Part shown: positions 4,888-44,936 of the stretch, piece by piece
Position numbering within the stretch: the stretch's first letter is position 1
Layout: every line of letters begins with the position of its first letter
Source: Utricularia gibba
Taxonomy: Eukaryota > Streptophyta > Magnoliopsida > Lamiales > Lentibulariaceae
Reading direction: 5' to 3'
Assembly: GCA_002189035.1 (NCBI GenBank)
Contig: CM007990.1
Span: forward strand, 1,178,001-1,242,000
DNA: 64,000 nt
The notes under the pieces: model-generated
The model's input: only the letters and a program-made list of their open reading frames with translations
The model's database searches: none
Told to the model about the DNA's origin: nothing
Program-made: the position numbers and the translations under genes

Positions 4888-5942
4888 CTGCCCTAGCGGC
4901 TCCCCGCCGCGGCCATCGCATTTCCCGATAGAGAAAAGCCCTTGGGCCTGATCCTGGGCCCACATCCAGGGACAATTAGTCACGTGATCAACGCGTGGTT
5001 TGACATCTTTTTCTTCTTTTTCAGGGGAAGAGATAAGGATCTTATTTATTTCCTTTTATAGAAAGAGATAGGGCTATTACTAGAGGTCACCCTAGGTTGA
5101 AAGACTGTAAGAAAATATTTATGATTTATTTAAGTAAATAACTCCTTTTTGTCTCATAATGATTAAAATAAAACTAAAAAAAAGGATTAATTCTAACATC
5201 AAATATGTTTTAAAAATGAATACAATTAATTTAAGGATTAAAAGAATCACAACCATCATTTCAAATGTTGTAGTTTAAATTATTTAAAATAAAAAATGAG
5301 ATAAATTAAATGTTAGTTATCAAAATTATTGAAGAATGTATATTTTATGAATTATGAATAATTATAAATATAATTTATTAATATATTAAATGATTTAAAT
5401 TGATAAGACATTATAAATTGTGTATTCATTGTTTTGAATAATTATATAAAATGAATGCTATTAAATATTTTTATCGTAAAAACATAATAAAAATGTTTTT
5501 TTATCAAAAGAATTTATTTTTCTCAAAAAAAGCAGGGCGCGTGAGGGTAACATTCCTCCGGTAACCGTCCAGGTGGCGTGCACACAACACAATAGGGACT
5601 TCAAAAAGCACAAAGAATCGCTGATCTCGCGGCCGCCGCTAGCCATTTCCTATCATCTCCGACGCCGGAAGTTATACCGGAATGGATTCGGCGATTTCCG
5701 TCGAATCTCTATCATGCCTCGGCCGTGAAACCGTGGTGGCATTTTGCACGCGCTTCCACGATTTGATAAGCTTTTTTTGTGTTATCCAGTTCGCTCGTCA
5801 TCGTCTGGGATTCTGAAGCGCCACGCGTGCTACCTACCCTGCCGTTCACTATTTCTAAAATGTGAGGATCTAGAAATCCGGCTGCCATAAATGAGCCTCT
5901 TCCATCTTCTCTTTCTCGCGAAATCTCGAGATCTCGGGAGAA
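4888..5942. other. Spacer between DCI1 and FLC-A (divergent promoters)
   Basis: No gene seen. Roughly 5040-5520 is very AT-rich and contains a copy of a dispersed repeat (separate entry). From about 5530 the base composition rises to the GC-richer 5' flank and leader of FLC-A, with no convincing ORF. Confidence 0.6.
5284..5480. repeat. Dispersed AT-rich repeat, copy I
   Basis: Resembles segments near 19245-19420 and 39290-39470. Shared blocks include ATTATTGAAGAA, TATGAATTAT, TTAAATGATTTAAATTGAT and TTTTGAATAATTATAT, in the same order. Similarity was judged by eye; no terminal inverted repeats were defined, so the element class is unknown. Confidence 0.45.
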
Positions 5943-7526
5943 ATGGGGAGAAGAAGGCTTGAGATAAAGCGAATCGAGGACAAGAGCGCTAGGCAAGTAA
6001 CATTCTCGAAGCGGAGGAATGGCTTGCTGAAGAAAGCCAGAGAACTGTCGGTTCTCTGCGGCGCCGATGTCGCCGTTGTTATTTTTTCCAGTAGCGGAAA
6101 GCCCTACAATTACTGCAGCAACAACAGGTTGGTTTCTTTGTATTTCATGCGTTATTTAGAACGAGATTCTAATCTTGATCTTCATCCAGCTTGGCCAAAA
6201 CGCTGAGAAGGTATTATAATCATGTTGAACCAGAATCAAGTCACCCCAGTGGCGTTTCTGATGACAAGGTACATGAATCTTTACATGAAAAAGGGTTATC
6301 CTTGGTGGATGATTTACCAGAAAAGGTTCAGAATTCATTCTACCTTTGAAAGTAGTAGAAGAAACATATTTTCAAATCCAGGGTTTGTGTTGCATTTGGA
6401 TGAGATATTGCATTCCATATTTGTGTCGTCAAGGCTCTCATTTGATGTTATGATTTTAGCTGGTTTTGAGGTTATGGATCCTGGATTGAATCTGTTGGCT
6501 GTTTTAGATGTAATGCTTTGGTTGGGGAGCAGAATGTTATTCACGTATGCTCTACATTTCTACATCAGGCTTGCAACTTTAAAGATCCAGAATACATCAC
6601 AAGAGAGGAGCTTCTTCAAGTTGTGGAAAGGCAATCATGAGTTTTGTTAATCCTCCGAATGAGTGACTGTGCTTTTAAAATATCACATTTGACACAGGGA
6701 ACTCGAGGAGCTGGATGGTGACCAGCGCAGCGATGTTGAACTTGTTCTTCTTGAAGACCAACTGCAGAATGCATTAGTGCAAACTAAAAAGGCGAAGGTT
6801 CCTTCTTTAAACCCCTCTCCAACTCTCGAAAAATGCATCTTATCAACGGCAGTTTTCTTGCATATCCCTAGGCCTTTGATGAAGTTTTACTCTGTTTTCT
6901 TGTTCATCGACGCGGTTGTCTTGACTACCAGCGATATGCTTTTTCTGATCCCTGTTTTTCCACACAAAGAAAGCCTGATTCAATTACTGTGCAGACGGAT
7001 TGGCTATTGAATGTCATCTCCAACCTGCAAGACGTGGTAAGAATTTAATATTCTCTATTGCCCTGCATACCAACTGTGGCAGCATATCGGTTTACCTTAT
7101 CACTCAGAAGTTCTTGATAGTAGATGAAATGGGGGCCTTTTCCATGCCCCTGTTCATCTTTGGAGTGTATCAAAAAAGAGAGAAATGCACTGGAACTATT
7201 CTGAGAACTAAACCACTGACTGTAACAAGAACAAAAGTCTTTGAACTCATACACCATACACAGATGCTCAAGTGATTCCTTTTTGCTACCAGGAAACCGC
7301 ACTATTGGATCAGAACAATTTCCTTGAGGACAAGGTAATCTACACGCCCTCTGACCATTACCAGCATTTGAGCATGCAGATTTGCTATCAAACACCAATG
7401 CTACATTCCATAATTAAGTTGGGATGCTGTTAAAGTGATCACAATTTGCAGATCAGCAGGAGCACTGTGAAGAATGCTGCTGCCCTGGATCTGAATGCGG
7501 TTCCTGATGGCTACCAGAGTTCATAG
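5943..7526 (+). CDS. FLC-type MADS-box transcription factor (FLC-A)
   Basis: Seven exons: 5943-6127, 6190-6268, 6569-6630, 6698-6797, 6995-7036, 7293-7334 and 7452-7526, in frame, 194 residues (Arabidopsis FLC has 196). Exon 1 (185 bp) encodes the MADS domain [20 protein letters not shown]..., residues 1-61, which binds CArG boxes as a dimer. The I region and a K-box coiled coil follow; exon 4 reads [20 protein letters not shown], the pattern typical of the FLC/MAF clade. The last exon encodes [14 protein letters not shown] with a DLNxxP EAR-type motif. Odd: intron 1 is only 62 bp, against 866-1205 bp in the other three. Intron 3 has a GC donor (GAAAG|GCAATC at 6631); reading through reaches TGA three codons later, so a GT alternative is blocked. 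Expected role: repressor in flowering-time control (inference from clade). Confidence 0.85.
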
Positions 7527-10073
7527 GTTCAAGTAATCGTGCCATGTGATGGATGAGTAGAAGATTGGCATCTTTGCCAATCAGCCATTTACAGGTGGTT
7601 TTTGAAGAATGATCATCCATACTTTTGTGCATCTGAAAAATGATCCTTCACTAGTTCTGTTTTGTTTTGTTCATATTTGTGTAAGAAAACAAGATCCATG
7701 GTTATTTTTCAAAAGCAAGTACCATTTATTCACTCATACAGTAGCGCTTCACTGCAGAACCTCCTCTTTGCTGCATTTACTTCATTCTGTAACCTCCTTT
7801 GTACTGCATTTCTTGGATCTGATGTGTTATGGAGTCATTAATGTAATTACTATATATGAAAAATTTGATTAAAAAAAGTCACTTAAATGGAATTAATTGT
7901 TTTTAATAGAAAATTATTGTAATAAAAATTATACAAAAAATTATCAAAATAACATTTTCACTATAAAAGATGTAGCCAAATCTTTTTTGTCATAAATTTG
8001 GAAGAAATTGTAGTACATTTTGATGCATAGGTTAGAAAAACTTTTTGGAATCATTTGTTAGCTGTGTTTAGACATTTAAACAAAGTACATTGTAAAAGTG
8101 ACAATCATAAATTAAATGTGTAATAAAAATGATCATCATTTTAATGCGTAAGATAGAAAGAATAAAGATATCTAGATTTTTAAATGATACTCTAAAATGT
8201 ATGTTTTATATAACACGTGTTTCATATAATTGTTAAATAATATAGGTGATTTTTTTTAAATAATATGGGATCATTTTTTTTATATTTATCTTTTATTTTT
8301 ATTTTTGAATTAGATCAAATTTTTATTTATCAAAACTCATGAGTAAAAGTTATGAAAATGTAATATATACTTAATGGTTACTATTAATTATTATAAACTA
8401 TACTATTCATCTGAATAATTAACTTAAACACATGAACTATTAAATTATGCTGTCAAACATTCTCTTTATATGTTAAAAATAATACTCCAGTGTTAAATAA
8501 TACATCTATCAAAATATTTAATCCATATTATTATATATTAATTACCATCAACCTTATAGTTAATAAGTTATTTAGTTTTTTGTTAGGAACAAAAACTACT
8601 TTTGAAAATGGATTTGAAAAGTATTTTTTTATCCAATACAAATGATTTTTATTTTAAAAAACTAAAAAGTTTAAATTTTTTATTATTTTAAAACAAGCTG
8701 AAGAACCTTTCTATTATTAGAATTAATTTTAAAATTTTTTTTTAGAATCTTAACATTTGATATTCTACCAAATATATCCTGATTAATTCCTTACAAACTA
8801 TCTTACATTTGTGGGGATGAACAATATTGTTATGACATGTTTTTAAGGCATGTCATTCCCTATGTTTTTAAGTGTAGATGATTGAAAATTCAAAAAAAAT
8901 ATTAATATATTAAATGTTACAATTCATATTATTCTTATATGATATTGTTCGATTTAAATAATTAACCTTACAATTTATGTTCTTCACTTCCAAAAAAAAG
9001 ATTTTGTTTAAAATTATAGTAATCCATCTAGTTAAACATGTCTTCTTTCATATTGTTAACTAATATGTGATATTATTACTAGATTTACAACCTTACATTT
9101 TCTCTCATTTAGTTATTGAGTGTTCTCACTAAATAACTTGTCCCATCATTGAAACATGTATGTGTTTTGCAATGATACCAAATGTCATGATCTATATTAT
9201 TATTGTACTATTTTCCATTTAGATCACATACTTTTCCATGATTATACATTTTCTTTTTTTAAAAAAATATTCTTGAAAAAAATTAGAAAAATCTTTTTAT
9301 TTAAACATATTCTCTCATTTGTACATAACCAACGTCGTTACAATACCCTTGGTCTTAAAATAAAAATACAACTTATTTCAAAGTTTGAACGAACATCTTA
9401 AACTATTTAACAAGTAATTACATTCATTTTTTGTAGCATTTGACATCATTACATAGTTTTTCATGCAAGTTTTTTGTTTTGGCTTTGAATCCACATACTT
9501 ATAATTACATTTTACATTATTTAAATGAGAATTTAGAAACATTTTTGAACGACTTTTTCATAGAATTTCATTCTAATTTATTTAATTGAAAATTATGAAT
9601 GTTTTTTTTAAATAATTCTTTCGCATTTATAACGCTTCCCACATTCATGGCTCAACACAATTATCAAGAGAAACCCAACTTGTCGACGTGCCAAGCGCGC
9701 ATTGGATGTGTCACTTGTAAAACACAAGTGTTCTCACGTCGGGGTTGAACTCCCAAAACGACAGGATTGAATCGAATGGATTCGGATAAGGATGACGCCG
9801 GCGACGATTTTCTCGTTTCCCCCACCAGCCGACGTCGACGAACGGCGATCGACGATTTCGAACCAGATTCGGGTAACGCTGCCCCCACCATTCTCGCTTT
9901 CTCCATCAGCTTTCTGTGTTGTTCTTCTATTGTATCACGGTGCTTCCTCGACTGCACCTTGTCTGGAAGTGGAGCGCTCGAAAAAGCCAACTTTTCTGGA
10001 AATCGGAAAGGCTCTTACTCTTCTTCTCTATTTCTTTTTCGGCTACGACGCTAGAGATTTTGAGTTGGGGGAA
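7527..10073. other. Spacer between FLC-A and FLC-B
   Basis: No gene seen. 7527-7870 is the 3' flank of FLC-A. About 7870-9650 is strongly AT-rich with many short homopolymers. From about 9660 to 10073 the sequence turns GC-richer and is the likely promoter and leader of FLC-B. ORFs there (for example 9767-10054) lack any recognisable domain. Confidence 0.6.
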
Positions 10074-12119
10074 ATGGGGAAGAGGAAGCTGGAGATTAAG
10101 CGGATCGAGAACAAAAGCGCTCGGGAAGTGACTTTCTCGAAGCGGAGGAGTGGTTTCCTGAAGAAGGCCGGGGAGCTGTCAGTCTTGTGCGACGCGGAAG
10201 TCGCCGTGATTATATTTTCCAGCACCGGAAGGCTGTACGAGTACTGCAGCCCTAACAGGTTCATTAACGTATTTCAGATCTCCTGTCTCTTTATATCTTC
10301 CAGCACCAGTATTAATCGTTTATTGGGGCGAGGCTGATGCTTTAGATGTTGACAAGTTTCCATCTTTTGACGACCTCATGAAAGAAATAGCTGTAATAAT
10401 GCCCTAGTTTTGCTTGTATCGAATTGTATGTGCCGATATCTTTTAACATGTTTCTGCACATGGTTTATTCATCCATTTGGTAGTTGATACACAGTTTGCT
10501 TTACATGCGTACAAATTTCTTTGTTCCCATCTTATGCTCATGAGCATTTTGATGTCCATGATCCACTACAGCACGATAAATTTCACAGTAAATGTTATCT
10601 TTAACACCATCAGGAGTACCCAAGCCCACTTTTCTCCTGTGATTTCTCTTCATCGCCAGTTATGACATGAGCATTGCCTAGAACCTTTGGTTCCTTCTTA
10701 TTATGATTTACTAACTGATAAGAAGTCCATATAGTGGTGCACTGAGAGATAGCGGGTTCATTCTCTTCACAATAAAATGCAAGCGATTGGCAAAAGCAAG
10801 AGTATGCTTTTGGTAGTGTATCAAACACGCTCTGGTGTGGTGGATATTGTTCTACAGGTTATAGTATTCATCTCTTCCCTTCACTATGATTTTTCAGAAG
10901 CCGTGTTATGATATTCACTATGTAAAAATGGGATATTTACCACTCTGAAACCTTTGTTATAATCAAGTGTTTAGATGATACCGAGTATAGTGAGGTAATG
11001 GGTTCATGATATCATATGTAAGAACTGATTTTCTTTCTGTTACTGCATATGTGGAAGTTAGAGATGAAATCATGTCGATTTTTTTAGAGAATACCAGAGA
11101 GAGAATTTCAAAAATCATGTGTAGAGAAGCAACATACGGTTTCCTTCATCGGTGTTTCAGGTTTAGAAGTTGCAGCTCATTTCATGTGGATGGCAGGTTG
11201 GATACGTAGGTTAGATGCTTAGAAACTGCAAGACGTCAAGATACTTCTTGGAAACATCATTATATATGAATTGAGAGAACACTGTAAACTCATGCGTTAA
11301 CTGAAGTATCAACCAGGGTGAAAGGAAAAAATGCTGATATCTAGGCATACTTGCCTTTTTTTCATGTTCTCATTATTGACTGTTAGTTTGTCTTTTCTTT
11401 CCTGTTTTCACTATCAAATTACAGCACTTTAACCTTGGATACACATTGTTTGACTATCACTAGCTTGGCCACAACCCTACGACGTTATTACAATTATGTG
11501 GGAACAAAAGCAAGCACACACACTGGAGATCCTGAGCAAAGGCAAATGAATTCCTATAATTTGTTCCTCAGTGCTTACTCTTCCTGGTCTTCCAGACGAA
11601 AGTCTGATGTTGCTTTTCCCTTTTTCTTTTACAGGGAACTTGAGGAGCCCTTTGATGCACAGCGCAGTGTGGCCAACCTTGCTCTTCTTGAAAATCAACT
11701 CAAAACCGCATTAATGGAAATAGAACGAGAGAAGGTTTCCTATCTAGTTTCCACCCGACTATTTTCTCATTCACTTCTCAAACATGCACCCACCGACATG
11801 TTTCGCAGCAGTTAGCATACAATGTAGTTTCTTTGTTGCATCTCTCAATACCTGTAATATGAATGGCTTTTCTGGTTTTCTCTACGTTGCTAACCCCTCC
11901 TTTCTCCTGTCCCCTTTGCAGCAGAATGCACTGGCAGAAGAACAGAGCCTCCCCGAGCTAGACAAGGTGATCATATACTTGTCCCAGATCATACTGAAAC
12001 GAGCTGCCTGAGCGAACGCTGATCAGTCTCCGCTCAACCTGCAGAGTGGCCGCAGCCACGAGAAGAACGCATCTATAGATCTCAATCTCCTCCCCGCCGA
12101 CGACGACAACCAAGACTAG
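10074..12119 (+). CDS. FLC-type MADS-box gene lacking exons 3 and 5 (FLC-B)
   Basis: Five exons: 10074-10258, 11464-11541, 11635-11734, 11922-11966 and 12045-12119, in frame, 160 residues. Exon 1 gives the MADS domain [20 protein letters not shown]. Exon 2 ([17 protein letters not shown]...) joins directly to the exon-4 equivalent ([19 protein letters not shown]...). The 62-bp exon 3 of its sisters (the ...[14 protein letters not shown] segment) is missing, as is the 42-bp exon 5. Exon 2 is 78 bp where the sisters have 79, ends in CAAAG, and uses a GC donor (GCAAAT at 11542). That one-base change is what keeps the frame after loss of exon 3. The intron that follows resembles intron 3 of FLC-C (AATTTGTTC...CTTCC). 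The C terminus [15 protein letters not shown] keeps DLNxxP. It may be a working short variant or an early pseudogene. Confidence 0.7.
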
Positions 12120-13097
12120 AACAATGAGAACGGCTCCCGCAGTTTGCTGCATCTGAACCTTTGAAGAACCATGTCGATGGCCGTACTGTTTCATGGCCCA
12201 TGTAGCTGACGTATTCCACCCTCTGAATTTTTTTTCATCTTATTTTTGTTAAATTTAATATTGTGCTGTTTGATTTCATGAGTACGAAGAAAATTGACTA
12301 CTTGCCATTATCAAGTTTCGAGTGGGCCCCGTGGATCTGTACGGACACTCCCCCGGTCGCATGGCGGTTTACTGTACGGACGAGCCGACTTTTGGGGTAT
12401 CTGGGCCTTGTCTCAAGGTCAAGTTGTCGGCCCAATTGTTTTTTTTTTTTTTTTGCAAATTTGGTGATATTTTTATTACCTCCTTTTTTATGAAAAAACG
12501 GTGATTAAAATGTATTTAAATACGTAAAATTGTAATATTACGATTTATCGAGGGCAAAAATGTCACGGAATGATGGAATTTGTGTTTATTAATTAATGTG
12601 ATTTATTTTTTTTGTGTGAGAAGCTATTGACTACGTGAAGGCGCCATGGCTTTGACGTGGACAGCTGTCCGCTGGCCCCATTGCCTTTTACGAGAAAAAA
12701 GTAGAAAACCCCAATTGTCACGTCAAAATCGAACCGTAATTGAGGGCGATCGGGAGCTACCGCCGGCGAGTGTCTTCACCTCCGCCTTCCAGGCGACACA
12801 ATCGAATGGCCGACGAGGCTTCCCCGGCGGATTCTTTCACGTTTCCGCCGTAGTAGGCCCCACGCGTGGAGAGGATTCTGTTCCTATGCAACTTGCATGT
12901 GTTTTTTTTTCTTTTTTACAGTGGAATCTCGTCCATTCGTTTTGTGGAGCCTTCAAGACCTTACTGGATTACCTCCTGACAAGCTCTAGTTCTCCGGATT
13001 TTACTGGATTACCTCCTGACAAGCTCTAGTTCTCCGGATTTGGTGTTTCCCATACTTTCTCTTTGTCCGTACCCTAAATTTTGGGATTTCAGTACGA
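12120..13097. other. Spacer between FLC-B and FLC-C
   Basis: No gene seen. At about 12338-12386 the word CTGTACGG occurs twice, a core shared with the minisatellite at 15714. 12640-13097 is the likely promoter and leader of FLC-C and contains an exact 40-bp tandem duplication (separate entry). The ORF at 12646-13029 has no recognisable domain. Confidence 0.55.
12961..13040. repeat. Exact 40-bp tandem duplication upstream of FLC-C
   Basis: The 40 bases at 12961-13000 (beginning TTACTGGATTACCTCCTGAC, ending TTCTCCGGATT) are repeated without a mismatch at 13001-13040. The array ends 57 bp before the FLC-C start codon, so it probably lies in the 5' leader or core promoter. Perfect identity implies a recent duplication or an assembly artefact. 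Confidence 0.95.
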
Positions 13098-15430
13098 ATG
13101 GGGAGGAGAAGGCTGGAACTGAAGCGAATCGAAGATAAAAGTGCTAGGCAAGTTACCTTCTCAAAGCGTAGAGCTGGCCTGCTGAAGAAAGCACATGAAC
13201 TCTCGATTCTTTGCGCCGCCGATGTCGGCGTAATCATCTATTCCAGCACCGGGAAGCTATACCAGTTCTGCAGCGGCAACAGGTGCACTTCGCTTATGTT
13301 TTGAAGTTGAAGTCCGTACATATGATGATATTGCTCCATTGATGATGTCGGTGACTAGTTATGGTTTTGTTTCTTCCACATGGTTTCCATGGTTGATCAT
13401 TTCATTAGCACATATCAAGCTGATGCAATTTGCTGAGGATTCTCAGTTTCTTAAGACTTATAATCCATCATTTTCTTCGCATGTTATGGAATTCTCGGAG
13501 CATATCGGGATACTGGTGACAAGATATAACTTGCTTCCTGCTAGGAGTAAAAAGGGACCACTTGTTAATAGGTCTCTTTTGTCACCAATCATGCAAAGGC
13601 ACCACCTTCGATCACAAAAATTCAAAATGCAAAGTCGTCATTTGTAATCACACGCGAAAAATACATCAAAAAAAGACTACACTGTCAAGAGAAATGAAAA
13701 AAAAAAAAACTTAATGGTGACGCGTTGAGATTATTTTTTGGTTGACACCCTTGGTTGTGTTGAAGGAACCTGTAGTCGATACATAGGTTGAGTTAGTTTG
13801 TGAAATGTGTCGTTCTATGCCATCTGTTCATTACTTTCATTCTAGGCTCATTCTCTCCATCTTTGCCTTTAGTTTTTATGTTTTGGGGATTCCAATGTTA
13901 AAATCTTGCTTGGATGTTCTTTTCTTTGACTGTGCTAATTGTGTTATTGTCTCGGGCAGCGTGGTAGATTCTGAGTTCAACTATTCTCTCATTTTGCTGT
14001 ATCACGGCTTTATATTCTCTACCATAGAGCATCATTTGCTCTTCCAATGATTTCTTGATGTTGTATTAGATTTACTCCCCTCCCCTCTTGCAGATGCAAC
14101 TGCAGCCTTCAGATTTGAAATTCTATATTCGTGTATGGATTCTCAATGAACTATTTGATTATCTTCCAGCTTGTCAAGAACCTTATGGCGGTATTACAAC
14201 TATGTTGGGTCTGAAGCAAGCCCCGCCAATGGAGAGCGTAAGGAAAAGGTAAAAAATGAACCTCTAAAACATTAGTCTCCTTTCCTGTGGAAATGTGACG
14301 CTGATACATGTTCAAGTCTTTTTCTCCCTTTCTGTGGTTGTGGATGAATTGCTAGAAGAGTTTTCGCAGTGCAGTTTATAGCATGTATGAGTAAATATAT
14401 TATAGATAGCGTAATGCAAATAAAAATGTGTTTCTTTGATTTCAACTTGTCTTGATACAAATCTATGCCCTTCGTGTTCAGCGGTCATAAAGACAAACAA
14501 GTATTTTTCTGAGAGACAATAGATTGATAGTCAATTTTTAGTGTCGAAAGCATGCTCATATTGATAAACAATCACGGATAGCATGCTTTGGATAAACACA
14601 TGGAAGTAAGTTTTTGAGAGGTTCTCTTTCTTTTACATGTTCAGGCTGATTACTCCAAATATTCAGAATACATTACCAGCGAGGAACTCCTTCAAATGGT
14701 GGAGAGGTACTCAATTTGTTCATTCATGTTTACTTCTTGGCCTTCCAAATGAGCGGCTTTAGAGTCAAAATTTTGCATTTGTACAGCCAACTTTCGGAGC
14801 CCTGTGATGACCATGACAGCTTGGTCGACCTTGTTGTTCTTGAAAATCAGCTCGAAACTGCGTTATTGCAGATAAAAACAGCGAAGGTTTTCTTTGAATA
14901 CTTTCATGTTTTCTCAAATCTGTACGCTTGTTGCCTGGCATCTGCAGTCTTGCTTAGTCTCTGCAAATATTATTATCGACTAATCATCATTTTCTGTGTA
15001 TCCAAGATCATCATCGTTCAGCTCCTATGGTACATATATTTCATTCTTGATGATACTCACCATAAAATGCCAATTTTCTGCAGACCCATCTGCTACTCAA
15101 TACCATATCAGCCATGGAAGACAAGGTATATGAAGCATTCAAATTATGGATCTTGTATAAAAATCCATGGGGGGGAGGTGGGGATACTTTGCTTACACGA
15201 TTCCTTTTTCTGGCAGGAGAAGGCGCTGACCGAGGAAATGATTCTCCTTGAGGGCAAAAAGGTGACCACTCTCTGAATCTGAAGAGTAACTTAGCTTCAG
15301 GTACAATAGCGTTTCGTACATCAACGATGATCACAATTGACTCAACTTGCAGAATGTCCAAAAGAACGTGAATGTGAAGGAAGCAACTCTAGATCTCAAT
15401 ATGGCTCCTGATGACGAAAATGATGACTAG
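13098..15430 (+). CDS. FLC-type MADS-box transcription factor (FLC-C)
   Basis: Seven exons: 13098-13282, 14170-14248, 14645-14706, 14787-14886, 15084-15125, 15217-15261 and 15353-15430. All introns are GT-AG and the CDS gives 196 residues, the same length as Arabidopsis FLC. The MADS domain is [20 protein letters not shown]...; the K-box region reads [20 protein letters not shown] and then [19 protein letters not shown]. The C terminus [15 protein letters not shown] carries DLNxxP followed by an acidic tail. Intron 1 is 887 bp; in FLC the first intron holds cold-response elements, but I see no specific element here. With FLC-D it is the most regular copy. Expected role: DNA-binding repressor, probably of floral integrator genes (inference from family). 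Confidence 0.9.
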
Positions 15431-15713
15431 AACTTGGGGTGTTCGAGGACGGGTCTGTTCGCTACTGTAATTTGCTACTGCATGCATCTGTTGGTTTCAA
15501 CTTCCATCTGTTGCCCCCGATGAACTTGAAGCTCTCCTCTCGAGGAGACAATAACTTTGATAGTCTGATTTGGTATGCAGTGGGGTTCTAAATCTGTTGT
15601 TTTCCTTTAGAATGATGTGCATTCGTGTCGTGGACGATGAATTTCAGCACACGCAGACAAGAGAATCGTGCATGGAAAACTAAAAAGAAACCACCTTTAT
15701 GTCATAAGACATG

Positions 15714-15995
15714 TGTACGGTCAGGGGGTATTACTGTACTGGTGCAATTGGGACTGACTGTACGGTCAGGGCATTATTGACACACGCTGGGGGGAATGGG
15801 GGTGGGGTAAGGGTATTCCGGACAAACGACTTCTGTACGGTCGGGGTATTACTGTACCGGTGGGGGGCGGGGGGACGAACTGTACGGTCAGGGCACTGTT
15901 GGCACACGTTCGTGGTAAGGGTTGCTCTGGACAAACGAGATCTGTACGGTCAGGGTATTAATGTAATAGCACAACGGAACTGTACGGTCAAGTGG
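15714..15995. repeat. GC-rich minisatellite with TGTACGGTCAGGG core
   Basis: The core TGTACGGTC(A/G)GGG occurs at 15714, 15759, 15834, 15881 and 15943, with a last shorter copy at 15981. Spacings (45, 75, 47, 62, 38) show a two-core higher-order unit of about 110-120 bp: 15714-15833, 15834-15942 and a partial third. Each full unit also has ACTGTAC(T/C)GG, CACACG, GGTAAGGGT and GGACAAACGA blocks. It lies between FLC-C and FLC-D, about 370 bp before the FLC-D ATG. Confidence 0.85.
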
Positions 15996-16362
15996 CCATT
16001 ATTGAGGAGAACGAGTGGCCAGTAGCATGGGTTTTTGTGGACCCGATTCAGTGGGGCCCTATGCTAAGTGGGCCCCGTTTCGGTCGGCAAGCGAAGAGCA
16101 GGAGGTTATGGGCAGCTCAGCTCATCCAATAATTACCTTCTTTTCATCTCCGGAGAAGACGTTTGCTCATGTCGTTTGTTGCTTGAAAACGACGGTGAAT
16201 GCATATGAAAAGCTTTGACCTCTGGAGTTGAGTTCGCCGCCGCGAATGTGCTGCCCGTAGAGGACGACGCGAAGTAAGGTCCTCAAACGTTGGAAAATTT
16301 TGTGAGTCGTCTACTGCCGTTCCTCTTCCCTTGGAACAAGAAATTTCTGGATTTGAGTTGAG

Positions 16363-18887
16363 ATGGGGAGGAGAAGGCTGGAGATGAAGCGGATCGAGGA
16401 TAAAAGCGCTAGGCAGGTGACGTTCTCGAAGCGGAGAAAGGGACTACTGAAGAAGGCCAGGGAACTCTCGGTTCTTTGTGGTGCCGATATCGGCGTGGTT
16501 ATCTACTCCGGTACAGGAAAGCTGTACGAGTACAGCAGCACTAACAGGTAATTGCCTTTCAACCTTGTGCGTGTCTCCGATTGCCGAGGTACTCTCCAGT
16601 TCTTCACTTTCTAATTCCGAGACCGTACATGTGATAATGCCCCAAGGTTGATAATTTGGCTTGGGGAGCTTTCCTCCTTGAAATAAGCATCTTGTCAGTG
16701 TTCAACCTTTGTTTTTGGTTCACTTGGAAATTTGCAATTCTCTTACGAAGATATTCATTTTGTCATGCAAGTTTCTAAGGAATCTGCTGTTTTAGTGTAC
16801 AAAAGCCCTTTCATGGAAGATATACATAAGTTCATGAGATGGGAAATTTGTGAGTTTCATGCAAATAGTTCTAGGTCTATTAAACACATGAAACCGTGTT
16901 AAAAGCATTGACCTTTTTTCTCTTTAAGCATGATGATTCTGTGTTCAAATATCCATTTTTTTGAAGAAGGTAAAAGTCCAGAAACCCAACCCTACCCCTA
17001 AATGCCTTGATTAAGTTTTTTGGGAAGTGTGGTTTGCTTACAAATTTGTATTTGTACATTCTTCCCGGCCCACTCGATCTTATATGCAGTAGTACAATAT
17101 TGATCTCCATTGTCCTACCATTTAAGGAAGTCTTGACGCGGGTCATGGTACTTCATATTCCTCCATGTCATGCCCCACTTTTTTGGTTGTATTGGCTGGC
17201 CATTCATGATTCCTCCTACGTTTTGTTGGAACATGGTTTTAGTTTCTCATTTGAAAACCTGTCAAAAGCACCAAGCCTGGTGTAAATACCAATGATAAAG
17301 CATAAAGATGAGCTTCATGTTGTCAACTGTAGAGCACTATCTCCTCTCACAGCAATTTCTCGATGTTTTCAATATATGTGTCTGAATTCTTGCTGAACCT
17401 TGAAATTATCCAGCCTGACAAGAACCATATGGCGGTACTACAATTATGTTGAATCTGAAACCAGCCTGGCCACTGGAGATCCAAAGGAAAAGGTAAAAAA
17501 TGAACTATTTTTATCTTCTTGTTCATTTACAGCACCCATGTCGTCCGCTGAGAATCCCTTGATAGCTTACCGACATTTTCTTCCTATTTGTGAGAGCTAA
17601 TGGATGATCAGCAGATTTCGTGCACTAGCCAACACTGCTATATTGTTGTATGAGTGAATAGGGGTATAAATATTTTCATGCAGGTTAAAGTTAAAAAGTC
17701 ATTCTTATTTTTAACCAGCAATATTAATTCTAACAAAGCTAGTGATAAAGTGAGCTTATTTATCAGAGATGCACATGGCAGCATGTGAGATTATCTGCAG
17801 GTCCCTGCCATTTTACAGAAGCAACAATATTTTGAGAGGCTCTCTCTCTGTGTTTCTTATCAGGCTGATTACACCAAGCATTCAGAATACATCACAAAAG
17901 AGGAACTCCTCCAAGTTGTGGAAAGGTGCCCCCAACTTTTATTCCTGCATGTTTCTTACTTTCTTGCCACTCTGAATGAGAGAATATACATACTCTCAGA
18001 ATTGTTCATTTTCACAGAGAACTTGGGGAGCCCTCCAATGACCAGCGTAGCGCTGTCGACCTTGTTCTTCTTGAAAATCAACTTGAAACAGCTTTACTAC
18101 AGATCAGGAAAGCAAAGGTTTCCCTTCCCTTTCAACCACACTTTTGCTGTTGTATCCATCACTTGCCTCTGAGATCTCCACGCACCCTCTGGGACCAGCT
18201 AGAGAGTTTTTTTTCTCCCTTCTTAAATCAACTGTCTTGTCCCTGACCTCATTATTGTCACTTCTTTTTCAGACGCATTTGCTCCTCAATACAATATCAA
18301 GTCTGCAGCATGAGGTACAAAGCCACCCAAATAAACTACATAAAACAAGAGAAGCTAGCTAGCACGTGATGCTCACCTGATTCCTTTTGCTGGCAGAAGG
18401 ACCTGCTGTCAGAGGAAAACAGCCTCCTCGAGACAAAAAAGGTGATCACTCTCTCAAAATGAAGACCAATTACATAATTCTAAACTCCATGAGAACGAGT
18501 TTTGAGAACAAAACTCCACACAATGAATGCTTCATTTCACTTCACTGAGTTTTTTTTTTTTTTCAAAATCATGTAAAATGGGATGTTATAGAATTTTAGT
18601 TGTATGATTTAAAATAAAAATAGATTTCATGATATTAAATTCAGTTATGTAGAAAATAGTTTTGAAGCTTTTAGAAGGTTTAAATTATTCCTTTGAAATA
18701 AAACTTACTACTAAACACTACCTTAGAGTTTCGGGTTTGATTACCCTTTAAAATAGTATCTTATACATTAAAAAAACATGAAAATTTTTTAATTTTTTTT
18801 AGACTAATGTTGCAGGTTGGCACAAGGAAGATGGAGGTGAAGAAAATAGCCCTAGATCTCAATGTGGTTCCTGATGACCAAATCTGA
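16363..18887 (+). CDS. FLC-type MADS-box transcription factor (FLC-D)
   Basis: Seven exons: 16363-16547, 17414-17492, 17864-17925, 18018-18117, 18273-18314, 18397-18441 and 18816-18887. All introns are GT-AG; 194 residues. The MADS domain is [20 protein letters not shown]...; the I/K region reads [20 protein letters not shown], then [19 protein letters not shown] and [14 protein letters not shown], which fit a coiled coil. The last exon ends [13 protein letters not shown], with DLNxxP. Exon sizes 185/79/62/100/42/45 match FLC-C exactly, so C and D are close sister copies. Upstream are the minisatellite at 15714 and a GGGCCC-containing segment near 16051-16076 (palindromic GGGGCCC and GGGCCCC). 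Expected role as for the other copies: DNA-binding repressor of flowering (inference). Confidence 0.9.
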
Positions 18888-20863
18888 AAATTACAATGTA
18901 TCATGAAATTGGTTGTCATCTATTTTTTTTCGTATTAAATAATATCATAATTTCAAATATATTTTTACATATTTAATCGTATTTCAAAATTTTTAAAAAC
19001 TTGTATCGTATGAATAACATTGATCAATAACATATAACAATGTTCAATTTTCTTGCTTTTTATTTTACAATGTTTCTCATATAATACAAAAATATTATAC
19101 ATTTTTTTTGGAATTTTATGGGAGGATGGCATGGTAAAAAAAGTTGATATTGATAGATCACATTTTCTTGCATAGTAAGTGTCACCAAAACTTAAAAGAG
19201 TCATGAAAATAGTTTCATATGTTGTATTTTGGATTATTTAGACTTGAAAAACTATAAAATAATTTAAATAAATTGAATGATAATTATAAAAATTATTGAA
19301 AAGGATGTAATTTATGAATTATTAAAGACAATGAATTAGCTAAAAAATGAATGATAGTTTATACATTCAATCTTTTGAATAATTGTATGTTAGAATTTAA
19401 TATTTTAAATCCTTTTTAATGTTGAAAAATAAAAAATATCTATTTATTGATAAAAAAAACGTAAGAGAGAACAAAATTTTGACATATTTTTGTAAATATC
19501 TAATGTGTTTTCATATTAACACACATAAGTTATATTAAATTAAAAAATAATATTAAATTAACAATTATATATGCTATTAAGTGTGGGCCTGGGCTGGGGC
19601 CCATGTCCACATCCACTACTTAACAGTCATTCTCATTGAATTTGATTTAACAGGGGCACTTTTGGAATTTTGTGAACAATTTTATTTTAAGAATCATTTA
19701 TACATGTTTGAAAGTAAAAATGATTATTAAAATAAAAATAATTTTTTCATGAAGAAAAACTAGTTTTCATATCCTATCAATCAAATTCAGTTAGAGTATT
19801 AACATTTCTATTTTTTAAATATGTATTGAAAAAAAGATTTTCAAATATTTCATAATTTTATTATATGAACAATGAATTTTGAGAATTAGTATAATTCTAT
19901 TAAAAGTTTGAGATGTTAATTTGTATTAAAATTGATTTTTAAGAATAAATTCTAAAATTTAAATTTATAATTATATTCATATTTTTATAATAAGTACAAT
20001 CATTTGTTTTTTAAAAATAAATTTAATTTTATAATATTTTTTAAATAAATATTGAAATATTTAAAAATTATTATAGTAATGTAAAATATAATATTTTAAA
20101 ATATAATACTTTATAAACTTTATTTTTTTACTTATAAAAATCACTTATTATTATTATTTTCACTCTAAATATAAATAAATTTTATAATAATTATTTTTAA
20201 AAATACATTCTAGCAAAATTTTAAATTTTATTTGGACTAATATTTTAAAACCTAATTTTAATTTATTTGAATTTAAATAAAAATAATCTAAAATTAAGTC
20301 TTTACATAATATTCAATTAATATTAAAACATTTGAAATTAAATAAAAAAAATATAAGAATATCACTACCTTCATATAATAAACAAAACTCTCTCTATCTC
20401 GAATTTATTTAAATATACGAAATAAATACAATATAATTTACAATACTTATATTAAACCCTTGCAATCCCATGAATCAAACACACATGGCGCAGGAGATTC
20501 TCCAGGTGGAGAACTCAAACTCAGGCCTTCCTTCTTCTTGTGTCATGGCCAAAGTACACACAGACAGCGCGTGGATCACCGTCGCCGGCCATGTCCGGCG
20601 ACCGCCATTGTCGTCACTTGTTGTGCTGAGAACACTATACAGTTTGGGACAGCTACTCTACTTCCTATACGGTGCAAGAGAAGCCTGCCTGCGATGCCTT
20701 TCCACAAAGAATCTTCTTCTACAGGTGGCTGTGGATGCACCTGCTGTGGAAGAAGAAGCCACCGGAAGATGCCCATGAGGGTGATTCTGTGGGAAACGAG
20801 GCGGAGATAGATGGATGTGGTGGACTCACAGTTGTGGAAGGATTCTGAGAAGTTTTCTAGCTG
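18888..20863. other. AT-rich spacer between FLC-D and AHK3
   Basis: No gene seen. 18888-20460 is extremely AT-rich and includes a dispersed repeat copy. A short GC island near 19584-19613 (GGGCCTGGGCTGGGGCCC) stands alone, with no adjacent ORF. 20460-20863 is GC-richer and is probably the 3' flank of AHK3; plus-strand ORFs there have no recognisable domain. Confidence 0.55.
19245..19420. repeat. Dispersed AT-rich repeat, copy II
   Basis: Matches copy I (5284) and copy III (39290) in block order: AAATTGAATGATAATTATAA, ATTATTGAAAAGG, TTTATGAATTATTAAAGA, TTTTGAATAATTGTATG. Judged by eye; boundaries approximate. Confidence 0.45.
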
Positions 20864-39939: not shown

Positions 39940-40359
39940 CAAAATCCTGAACCTTACACTATTGTTAGTACGAGTAGAATTGAAGGTGACCTATCACACC
40001 CAAAGCGATGGATGTGTAAATTTAAATGGATGTATGATTGGCTTTAAAATCATGGTGTGAATGCAATACCATCATGTGTGAACCATCCATCTCAGACAAA
40101 TAAGATATTATATTTATAAAAAAAGGTCGTAATTATTTGCTGGTGGGGCCCATTGCGGGTCCCCATTAATTTACAATTTTCTGGTGTAATTTTCCTGCAT
40201 TCCTACGCTTTAGTCGTTCTAATTCCACGTTACAGCTGCTATACGCTTCGAGTGTTGAAAGTCAACCAATCTAGTTTGGTGTAACCGCAAAGTCAACAGC
40301 AGCATAGTTGGTCTTCGGACAAGTTGTGTTACTATGGATTATGTGATATGTAATTTAAA

Positions 40360-40591
40360 CATTGTTTTGAAAAAAATTTTAAACTTGTTTTTACTTTTTA
40401 AAATTATTTTTAAAAAGTATAAATAAATAGTAAAAATAACAAATTCATTACTTTTTCGAAAATAAATTTTATACTTATAATTTTAAAAGTATTTTTGCTA
40501 AAAGTATTTTTACAATTAAAAGTATTACAAAATAAAATTATTTTTACTTTTGAAAAATATAAATATATTTTAAAAATTTTCCAGAACACTG
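40360..40591. mobile_element. Candidate MITE, about 232 bp
   Basis: The left end (40360, CATTGTTTTGAAAAAAATTT) and the reverse complement of the right end (40591, CAGTGTTCTGGAAAATTTTT) form imperfect terminal inverted repeats of about 24 bp. The interior is AT-rich and without coding capacity. I could not define a convincing target-site duplication, so the superfamily is open. Confidence 0.35.
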
Positions 40592-41666
40592 TTTTATATT
40601 TCTCGCATCTTAGTTCCACTTGTATTCATACACATTGTTAATCATTTGCAATCTTTTATTTTGTATTTGTAACGTACATTTGCATTTATATATATTATTT
40701 AAAAATGAATGAAAATCTGAAGAACATTGAAAAAAATGTTCAAGAAAATAGTTAAAAATGAATGGTTTTTTAGTATTGTAAATAGTAAATATTTGTAAAA
40801 ATTCTGAAATATCTGCAAGTGTTTTGAAAAAAAAATATTGAATCTTTCGATGATATTTAATTAATAATAAAAGAATACATTGGAATCTAGAAGTCAAACC
40901 TGCGTTATCCTCTCCAGAAAAGCCGTGGGTTAACTGGACATCGACAGCTCATTCATTACACGTAGTCCGATGTCGGCTGAAACTACTAGAAAAGAAATAT
41001 TAATTTTGAAAATAATAAAAAACAGTTCTATTTATTTACAATTTAATTTAAATATTCTAAAAAGACGCGCGTTTATTGTCAAAATTCCTCAAACGCGGGA
41101 TGGTAAATCTAGAACTAAAGTTGCGTCTGATATTCTTTATCATAAAAGTATTTTCCGATAATTATTTGTAAAAAACATATCCTATTAAAAATAATATTTT
41201 TTTTAAAATAAAAATCATCATATTGAATAATAGAAAATATTTTTAAAATTACTCTCAAGAAATAGAATTTATTTCAAAGAGGATATAAAAACTTATTATC
41301 ATAAAAAAAACATTAACATCTGGTTTTTGTTATACCCATTTTTAAAATTTGATGAAATATTAAAGCAATTTACCATTTTACCCTCAAATTTACTTTAATT
41401 TGTAATCATATATTTTAACATGAAAACACAATATATGAATTAAATTTGAAATACATTTATTAGATTAAAAAATAATATAAAATTTTGACACCCTGAAGCA
41501 TGATCTCCATGATCAATAAGAAAAAGCACCATGGAGTAGAAGAATGCAGTTACAGATCATCAAAAGTACACATTTCTCAAGCCACTACCAGACCCAAGTT
41601 AAGCATTCATGAGATGGAATGAATCATCACCAGGAGATCAAGAACTCAGAAATGTGAATCACAAGA

Positions 41667-44112
41667 TCAATACTCAGATGGGGAGATAACATCATCGATC
41701 TTGAGAATCATCTTCACTACCTGAGTTGCTAGCAGAATCTGCTGCTGTTTGCCGATCAGTGTTTCGAAAACGTTTTGCTCGCGCATGTCGTTCGTGCCGA
41801 TGTCGTTGCAGTCGATGCCGCAGCAGTTGTTTTTCTCCTGCAAGAAAGAGTTTAGCAGACCATACACAAGTGATTTGGAGGAGGCATCAGGGGGCTGCTA
41901 AAGAACCTTGATTTGCTGAGCTTTGACAGCAGAGAGTGTTTCGATCGGCTGCAGGCCGCTGTTCTCTGCAAGAGCCATGGGGATGGCATCCAGAGCTTCT
42001 CCGAATGCTCTGATTGCATACTGGGAAAGAAAGCCAGCACTCAGGTTTATGTTTTGGGTGTAATGAAACCATTTTGTACAGAATAATGGGATGCTTTTAC
42101 CTGCTCAACTCCGGGATACTTATCAGCAGCGGCTTCTACTGCAACCGAGCAAGAGATTTCGGCTGAGCCCCCACCGTATACAATGGAGTTGTTGCGGATA
42201 AGGTTCCGGGCAACACACAAAGCATCATGAATGCTGCGCTTTGTTTCCTCTATCATCATTTTGTTACCTTAAAAAGTTTGCCATTTGATGCATTTAGTGA
42301 AGCTGAGGCCTTTAGCTCAGGGACCAATTAAAAGCAGGAAGAACCAAAAACACCTACCACCACGTATGAATATGGTGACAGCCCTTGAATTTGCACAATG
42401 CTCAATGTAGATCATTCTGTCCTTTGTAGTTCCGAAACTTTTTTCTCGAACAAGACCAGCCTGGAATTTCAATGCATGTGAAATTACACTATCAGGAGTT
42501 GAAGCTGAGTATCGGTGGAAAAGGTGGTGCAACTTACGCTGCCAAGTTTCTCTGGGGTCAACTCCTGAAACCTCGGTACAATTCTCCCACCTTTAATAAG
42601 ATAGATAGAAGATCAAAGAAGCGCAGTACTCAAAAGCTCAAAAAGAAATGCAGCAGAAAAGGATTGACAAACAAATTGGCAAGTATAAACCTGTTGCTAT
42701 TGCTATAAGCTCTAACTCTACACCTCCAACCCATCTAACAGCAGGCAAGCTTCTGTTCATCAATAAGTGGTTGGCCTCATCATCGAAACCCCATTGGCAG
42801 ATAACCAAAGTAGCTCCCACATCCTGAGATCAAGTGAAGTGGTTGCGTTACGATAAAATAAGACATAATAACGGACATTCTATTGAACAACATAGTGAGC
42901 CTCACTTGCAAAAATACAGAGATTAAAAACAGAGTAAGGATAGTAGAAAATACAGAGGACCAACCTTGCATTTTTGGACCATGTCATCAAAGTATTGCTG
43001 TTCTTGCTGACGCAGCTTCTGGAACTTTTCCACTGTGTCAATGTCAACCTTATGCTTAGTCTTGGGCTTTGGGGGTTCAAATGGGCAAGTTAATATGGCA
43101 ATTTTTGCATCTTCGATATGCTTCGGCATCTGAGGATGGCTCATATCCTTGTCGATGATAATCCCATAGATCAGTTCTGTATCCTCAAGCTTTCCCCCAA
43201 CTTTTCCCTCTACTTTAATCAAGTCTAAATTAACATCCCTCCTTTCTAAGTCGGCAACAGCCAGCACTGCTTTAACCGCAATCTCTGCCAGGCTGCGCTT
43301 GCATCTATTCACACTGCAAAAAAGAAAGAACAATTGTGAATACAACTTGTAAATTTAACAATCCGCAAATAAAATAAAAAAAAACTTCTTACATCTTGGA
43401 AGATAATGTAGTCATACAAGTGCGAATCAAAGACTCATAATTTTCAGCATCGAATTCAAATTTATGTGCTATTTTTTCCAAATGATCAACCGCAATCCTA
43501 GAACCCATTTCATATCCTTCTGCAATGCGAATGGGATGAATCCCACGCTCCAGCAGTTTCTCAGCTTGTTCAAGAAGCGCACCCGCCATAACCACAACGC
43601 CAGTTGTTCCATCACCGATTTCATAATCCTGACTCCGTGACAATTCAACCATAAGCTTAGCAATCTGGTTGTCAACATCCATCTGCTCCAGGATAGTCGC
43701 ACCATCATTCGCTGAAAGCAGAGAAAGAACAATAAAAAAAGCATACACATGCCAAACCAAAAAGCAAAATATCACATAACCCAACTCGGTTCCTACCACC
43801 GCATCATAAAAAAAAAAAAGAGACTCATAGAAAGCATCCTAAGTCACGACAATACACGAGAGAATAAATGACACGAAAGCATATAATGAAGTAAACTCTA
43901 CTCGGGGGCTTACTTATGGTGACATCCCCATCTGGGCTTTGGAGCATTTTATCCATTCCTTTCGGTCCGAGAGAAGTCCGGAGAATCCGAGCCACCGCTT
44001 TACCGGCGGCAATATTCGCCTTTTGAGCATCAATTCCACGCAGTCTCGTCTTCGTCTCCTGCTCCCTGAGTATAATGTAAGGACGACCGAAATCGTCGAA
44101 TGCTAACGCCAT
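41667..44112 (-). CDS. CCT5: Chaperonin CCT (TRiC) subunit epsilon
   Basis: Nine exons on the minus strand: 44112-43914, 43711-43393, 43313-42965, 42823-42691, 42590-42538, 42460-42358, 42267-42101, 42020-41907 and 41837-41667; 535 residues, the same as Arabidopsis CCT5. Seen: [23 protein letters not shown] (recreated across intron 1), [19 protein letters not shown] (ATP site), [26 protein letters not shown] and [11 protein letters not shown]. The start [19 protein letters not shown] is typical. It forms one of the eight positions of the cytosolic CCT ring that folds actin, tubulin and other proteins. All junctions are GT-AG. The last exon ends [17 protein letters not shown], a normal end for the subunit. 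Confidence 0.96.
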
Positions 44113-44936
44113 ATCTCTGCACAACAAGACCTCGAGATTCGGCCTCCCTGCTTAACCTCAGAGAGATGGAAAGGGAAGCGAGTTTGAACGATTTCAAGGC
44201 TTCTACGAGAATGCCCTACTGGCTAGCGTCACCAGATGCGGCGTCGTTTTATCACGGCCCACCCTTTCGATGGGCTCCTTTTGACCAATAATTGGCCATG
44301 CCCGTCCGGCCCACTATCATAATTTCTTTTTACGAAAAGGCCTATATTTTATGTGTATAATATTAATAATTTTATAATTTATGTAAGAAACGTAGGGACA
44401 CGGGCATCGGTGTCTAGACACCCGTATCAGAATTGCTTTTGAAATTTATGTTTTTCAAAATTATCTTTATAAATTCAATATAATAATCTTTCATTCAAAA
44501 TACCAGAAAAAATGGAATCATGTAAATAAAAATAATTTATTAATTAATAAAAAAAACACATAGTGGACGTGTACGAAATTTTCGATTTTATATCAATTAT
44601 ATTATAAGAAAATGGTTCATAATAATTAAAAAATATATAAATAAGATAATTAGGGCTGGCCTCTGAAACTCGTATATATTATATTTATGCCGGAAATTTC
44701 TGCGCTGCTGAGTCACAGACACGAGACACGGATCGCCGACCCATGGCTGGTGCCTGAATCCAATCGCTCCTTGGCATCGGAGGAGTAGAAAATATGAACT
44801 GTCTTTTCGGCTTCGATGTGCTGTCCAGAATGCGAATAAATGCGGAGACTCGGCGTTCGATTCTATCTCCTCCTCCAGGTCTCTGCATCCCCCACGCGAA
44901 TCGGAGTTAACGGCCACCGCCACCGCCGTTGAGAAG
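44113..44936. promoter_or_regulatory. Spacer between divergent CCT5 and SUFE2
   Basis: No gene seen. Near CCT5 there are site II-like words: GGCCCA at 44256-44261, TGGGCT at 44271-44276 and GGCCCA at 44308-44313, the pattern expected for a strongly expressed growth gene. 44330-44670 is AT-rich. 44680-44936 is GC-richer and probably holds the SUFE2 leader and promoter. Confidence 0.5.

Follow-up and report, generated by a model that had tools for sequence, protein, structure and literature searches.

Tandem clusters of FLC-clade MADS-box genes are already known from the Brassicaceae (MAF2-MAF5) and from Mimulus guttatus, and the stretch of Utricularia gibba DNA analysed here, 64,000 nucleotides long and hereafter called the window (G000:C2:1178001-1242000), raises the question of whether its own run of MADS-box genes belongs to that clade, how old it is and whether its members are still maintained. 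No work on the FLC genes of Utricularia was found in the literature searched. The locus was described through the structure of its genes, their clade and relative ages, the synteny around them and selective constraint, the genome searched comprising 100.09 Mb in 516 contigs.

Four MADS-box genes (A to D) are present in the window, all on the plus strand and placed head to tail between positions 5943 and 18887, which confirms the arrangement given in the original prediction. The models were read by hand and their splice signals were then checked, a check in which the terminal exons of A and D were cut one base too early (Table 1). All four reading frames are open, with no stop or frameshift, each encodes a type II MADS domain (88-96 bits against a cut-off of 26; 95.9 in gene A), and each MADS exon gave E < 1e-23 in the whole-genome search, so that a chance match is excluded. 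The K-box scores 34.8 bits in D, 30.1 in C and 26.6 in A against a cut-off of 30, with no match in B. Introns are GT-AG throughout, save for one GC-AG intron each in A (intron 3) and B (donor at 11542); intron 1 of A is just 62 nt long. Core-eudicot FLC-like genes have been described as having seven exons and no eighth, sizes of 185, 100, 42 and 42 nt being conserved among them, and 185/79/68/100/42/42/105 has been proposed as the ancestral plan (PMC4852290). This published plan fits A, C and D, exon 6 being 45 nt in C and D, and B is a five-exon derivative; the exon sizes said to be common to all four genes therefore hold for three of them and not for B, which is without exons 3 and 5.

Table 1. 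Coordinates of the genes and gene remnants discussed; positions without a contig name are those of the window.
Feature	Position	Strand	Description	Basis
Gene A	5943-7526	+	FLC-like; 7 exons, 194 aa	MADS domain, FLC clade
Gene A exons	5943-6127, 6190-6268, 6569-6630, 6698-6797, 6995-7036, 7293-7334, 7452-7526	+	185/79/62/100/42/42/75 nt	splice sites
Gene B	10074-12119	+	FLC-like; 5 exons, 160 aa	gene model
Gene B exons	10074-10258, 11464-11541, 11635-11734, 11922-11966, 12045-12119	+	185/78/100/45/75 nt	gene model
Gene C	13098-15430	+	FLC-like; 7 exons, 196 aa	gene model, tree
Gene C exons	13098-13282, 14170-14248, 14645-14706, 14787-14886, 15084-15125, 15217-15261, 15353-15430	+	185/79/62/100/42/45/78 nt	
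Gene D	16363-18887	+	FLC-like; 7 exons, 194 aa	gene model, FLC clade
Gene D exons	16363-16547, 17414-17492, 17864-17925, 18018-18117, 18273-18314, 18397-18441, 18816-18887	+	185/79/62/100/42/45/72 nt	
CCT-type chaperonin gene	41659-44276	-	collinear marker	name read from translated sequence
Chaperonin copy	C451:2870351-2872978		~15 kb from E; 81% (DNA, over 2.6 kb), 94% (protein)	
Gene E	C451:2853076-2855686		FLC-like	model and tree
Gene F	C451:82497-84228		FLC-like	model and tree
Gene G	C2:4743813-4745642		FLC-like; after SEP3-like gene C2:4740883	
FLC relic	C451:668655 (L044 2655-2790)		truncated MADS exon; after SEP3-like gene C451:666269	
SVP-like array	C505:603659-617053 (603.7-617 kb)		five MADS genes, one model poor	
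SVP-like array	C402:1168867-1178299 (1168.9-1178 kb)		three MADS genes and a fragment	

The clade was assigned with a maximum-likelihood tree of A-D, 49 other MADS genes of the genome and 15 Arabidopsis anchors, AtFLC and FLM, though not MAF2-5, among them. The fetchable type-II-like MADS loci were modelled with a custom spliced protein-to-DNA aligner, a few loci being left out. Outside the array, three further FLC-like genes (E, F and G) and one relic are present in the genome, and A-D form a single clade with E, F, G and AtFLC/FLM (100/99 in the large tree, 98/95 in a smaller set) that is separate in the large tree from SVP, SOC1, SEP, AP1/FUL, AGL6 and AG. The predicted FLC-clade placement is thus borne out by the tree, and membership of the SVP/AGL24 or SOC1 groups, considered as a candidate, is ruled out by it, both being distinct clades. 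None of the modelled MADS genes, from which a few loci were left out, grouped with the AGL17 and AGL12 anchors; these two clades are linked to roots, and such a gap would fit a rootless plant. The seven FLC-like genes of the genome group apart from AtFLC/FLM (99/96 and 98/96), and moving AtFLC/FLM to the array lineage or to the F/G lineage gives a borderline result (p-AU 0.052 both ways).

Within this clade the closest relative of C is gene E on contig C451 (protein tree 100/96, codon tree 99/98), and not D, with which C had been expected to form the closest pair; that pairing fell once E entered the tree, the constrained C+D topology being rejected with p-AU values of 0.006 for codons and 0.024 for protein. 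The branching order among A, B and D is not settled by the trees. Synonymous divergence (dS) is 0.37-0.46 for C/E and 0.56-0.87 for C/D, and in 196 of 200 bootstraps C/E was lower than both C/D and D/E; pairs involving A or B within the array lineage lie at ~0.66-1.4, F/G at ~1.0-1.2, and the array lineage against F/G is near saturation. Other likely homoeologous MADS pairs show dS of 0.28-0.49 (two SEP3 pairs, a SEP1-like and an SVP pair) or 0.39-0.60 (FUL). Some MADS pairs are older, and the dating is rough, since a SOC1-like C2/C451 pair is higher (0.73-0.75) and a chaperonin exon compared between the window and C451 is lower (0.24-0.25). The relative orientation of chaperonin gene and FLC-like genes is alike in the two regions, on C451 with E and in the window with the array; the homoeology of the two regions rests on these two collinear genes only, no partner of the upstream neighbours of the array having been found on C451. 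Utricularia gibba has reportedly passed through three genome duplications after the eudicot triplication, the most recent of them via allopolyploidy (PMC6982007). Because the C/E divergence is like that of homoeologous pairs and the chaperonin gene is collinear, the array was most likely already present before the last of these duplications. It would have arisen through local duplication, presumably by unequal crossing-over; after the genome was doubled, the C2 homoeologue would have kept A, B, C and D, and the partner region on C451 probably shrank to E alone, the counterpart of C.

Several repeats lie in and around these loci. A perfect 40-bp direct tandem duplication is found at 12961-13041, just upstream of the start codon of gene C, and degenerate direct repeats around CTGTACGGTCAGGG occur between C and D at 15708-16005, with similar words also present after gene B, near 12330-12400. 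A copy of a dispersed repeat of ~240 bp is located at 40355-40586; the genome has dozens of such copies, 82-87% identical, one of them 1.8 kb upstream of E, and the repeat is perhaps a MITE, as it is partly self-complementary. The 232-bp match between 40355-40586 and the region near E was rejected as synteny, being a high-copy repeat, and the similarity between the flanks of the array (5238-5358 and 19192-19325) was rejected as a duplication boundary, since it overlaps a dispersed repeat.

Of the claim that the array is a separate, lineage-specific expansion, the separation from Arabidopsis FLC and FLM stands; "lineage-specific" is not established, given the probable origin of the array before the last genome duplication and the large FLC/MAF cluster of Mimulus (PMC4856076). 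It is a serious possibility, though one we would put somewhat below even odds, that the array descends from an old Lamiales-wide cluster orthologous to the Mimulus guttatus one and is not lineage-specific at all. In that member of the Lamiales, 13 FLC/MAF-like genes have been reported, 12 of them within one QTL on LG11 and belonging to two clades (PMC4856076), and the large distance of A and B from C and D (dS ~0.7-1.4) would agree with such an ancient origin; however, tandem FLC genes often duplicate and vanish, which makes a parallel expansion equally easy, and the trees here covered this genome and Arabidopsis.

Among MIKC genes, those of the FLC clade undergo loss or duplication more often than most, and the remaining FLC-like loci of the genome bear on how the array relates to the rest of the family. 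A tandem of SEP3 and FLC is the documented ancestral position of FLC (PMC10338227). Both gene G and the relic follow a SEP3-like gene of the same strand, with 2.4-2.9 kb between the two starts (2.4 kb for the relic), and the relic, whose similarity is lost after ~45 codons, occupies on C451 the place held on C2 by the intact G. No SEP3-like gene was found near the array in the whole-genome MADS search, and the array is a separate FLC locus, not the ancestral SEP3-linked one. It would represent a second FLC lineage, alongside the SEP3-linked one of G and the relic. The presence of two well-separated lineages, just one of which adjoins SEP3, may also be read as evidence that the array lineage is AS-MADS, the sister lineage to FLC within the SEP3/FLC/AS-MADS group, and not FLC proper. 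AS-MADS, which includes lettuce LsMADS16, has been described outside the Asteraceae in coriander, kiwi and grape (PMC10338227); however, all seven genes stand together apart from AtFLC/FLM (98/96), and, with the borderline placement of AtFLC/FLM mentioned above, the tree assigns neither lineage to FLC, so that we consider an AS-MADS identity doubtful.

It also seems improbable that the array expanded recently, in this species alone and after the last genome duplication, with E a later transposed copy of C. A clade of A-D excluding E is not firmly rejected (p-AU 0.07 for codons, 0.18 for protein), no relic of A, B or D was found beside E, over ~8 kb on its upstream side and 3 kb on its downstream side, and transposed MAF copies are known in the Brassicaceae (PMC10536770). 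Against this, the C/D distance and all distances involving A and B exceed that of C/E, the C+E grouping is well supported, the similarity of E to C extends through promoter and introns, and the chaperonin gene is collinear. Taken together, these data favour a tandem FLC-clade array that predates the last genome duplication, whose partner region on C451 retains only E, and which exists beside a SEP3-linked lineage and would act in floral repression; we give this reading a probability of about 0.8. One genome then displays the ancestral SEP3-linked locus, an old, tandem-expanded second lineage and a partner region cut to one copy, so that birth and loss of FLC genes can be read directly from it.

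Whether the copies are maintained was approached with a custom codon branch model, run from several starts on three topologies. Omega was ~0.25 for A, ~0.43 for B, ~0.32 for C, ~0.24 for D, ~0.20 for F, ~0.25 for G and ~0.80 for E; the values fall in the published range for FLC and MAF genes of the Brassicaceae, 0.21-0.41 (PMC10536770). In all four array genes omega is below 1 (2dlnL 26-30 for A and 5.8-6.8 for B over the three topologies, 5.8-7.4 for B over all fits), whereas that of E is above the rest (2dlnL 8.4, or 5.3 without the C-terminal part) and indistinguishable from 1; on these estimates the apparently relaxed copy is the lone E, not B. Gene B had been singled out as the most degraded member. 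It is indeed the shortest, but the loss of its two exons, the second of which is 42 nt in its neighbours, keeps the frame in both cases. Its 78-nt second exon ends in the same phase as exon 3 of the neighbours, and its 93-nt intron aligns with their intron after exon 3; the simplest reading would be one deletion that began close to the 3' end of exon 2, took in the whole of exon 3 and preserved the phase, leaving the GC donor. This 93-nt intron is open in frame, so that a translatable message would result whether or not it is spliced; an open frame in a single short intron is no surprise on its own. Judged from its codons, B is pared down in structure and, on average over its branch, not neutrally decaying; a pseudogene reading of B is rejected on the open frame and omega < 1. 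That most of the array is in decay, A and B being pseudogenes in the making, is unlikely, since the missing exons and K-box match of B and the GC donor and sub-threshold K-box of A are accompanied by uninterrupted frames, in-frame exon losses and omega below 1 in both.

What A-D do, with which partners, on which targets and in response to which temperatures can be proposed by analogy. Cold-induced silencing and repression of flowering have been demonstrated for Arabidopsis FLC, though not for every member of the FLC subfamily, and the FLC-SVP partnership is a known floral repressor dimer. Proteins of the FLC family bind CArG boxes as dimers and repress FT and SOC1 (summarised in PMC4856076). 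Each of the A-D proteins would thus bind CArG boxes as a dimer through its MADS domain, probably with SVP-type partners, and repress floral integrators of the FT/SOC1 type, and flowering would be adjusted to temperature or season through the number of copies and the expression of each; by this analogy, A-D may be seasonal or temperature-responsive floral repressors. A scan of the FLC-like copies for RY and CArG motifs, as expected of an FLC-like silencing element, gave no firm signal; a few RY motifs above expectation in D and E are not conserved between copies. Elsewhere in the genome two SVP-like arrays are present (Table 1), with C505:603659 and C505:608672 nearly identical (dS < 0.1), so that both halves of the known repressor pair occur in tandem clusters. 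These two arrays fit the SVP expansion reported for U. gibba (PMC4350169). Caution is called for by Mimulus guttatus, where two FLC/MAF-like genes were downregulated by cold but did not follow the vernalization differences between populations, whereas SVP-like genes did (PMC4856076). The two SVP-like arrays and the FLC array are candidates for the timing of flowering in this compact-genome bladderwort. Having lost the first part of the K domain as well as one of the later K-region exons, the B protein could still bind DNA and dimerise, and would make higher-order complexes poorly; a more speculative proposal, to which we attach little confidence, is that selection maintains B, its K domain cut twice in frame, to modulate its neighbours as a dimer-only protein, the FLC and SVP genes of this genome both forming arrays.

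Three known systems invite comparison. The ancestral SEP3-FLC tandem is present in this genome, intact at G and reduced to the relic on C451, and the window array differs from it in having no adjoining SEP3-like gene. Arabidopsis thaliana MAF2-MAF5 resemble the array in being head-to-tail FLC-clade genes under similar purifying selection (0.21-0.41 in the Brassicaceae, PMC10536770); unlike them, the array is probably older than a genome duplication, and it is independent in a tree where AtFLC and FLM are the sole FLC-clade anchors. The Mimulus guttatus cluster on LG11, also from the Lamiales, likewise gathers many FLC-like genes in one region, with tandem SVP-like copies elsewhere in the genome (PMC4856076), but it counts twelve genes where the bladderwort array has four.
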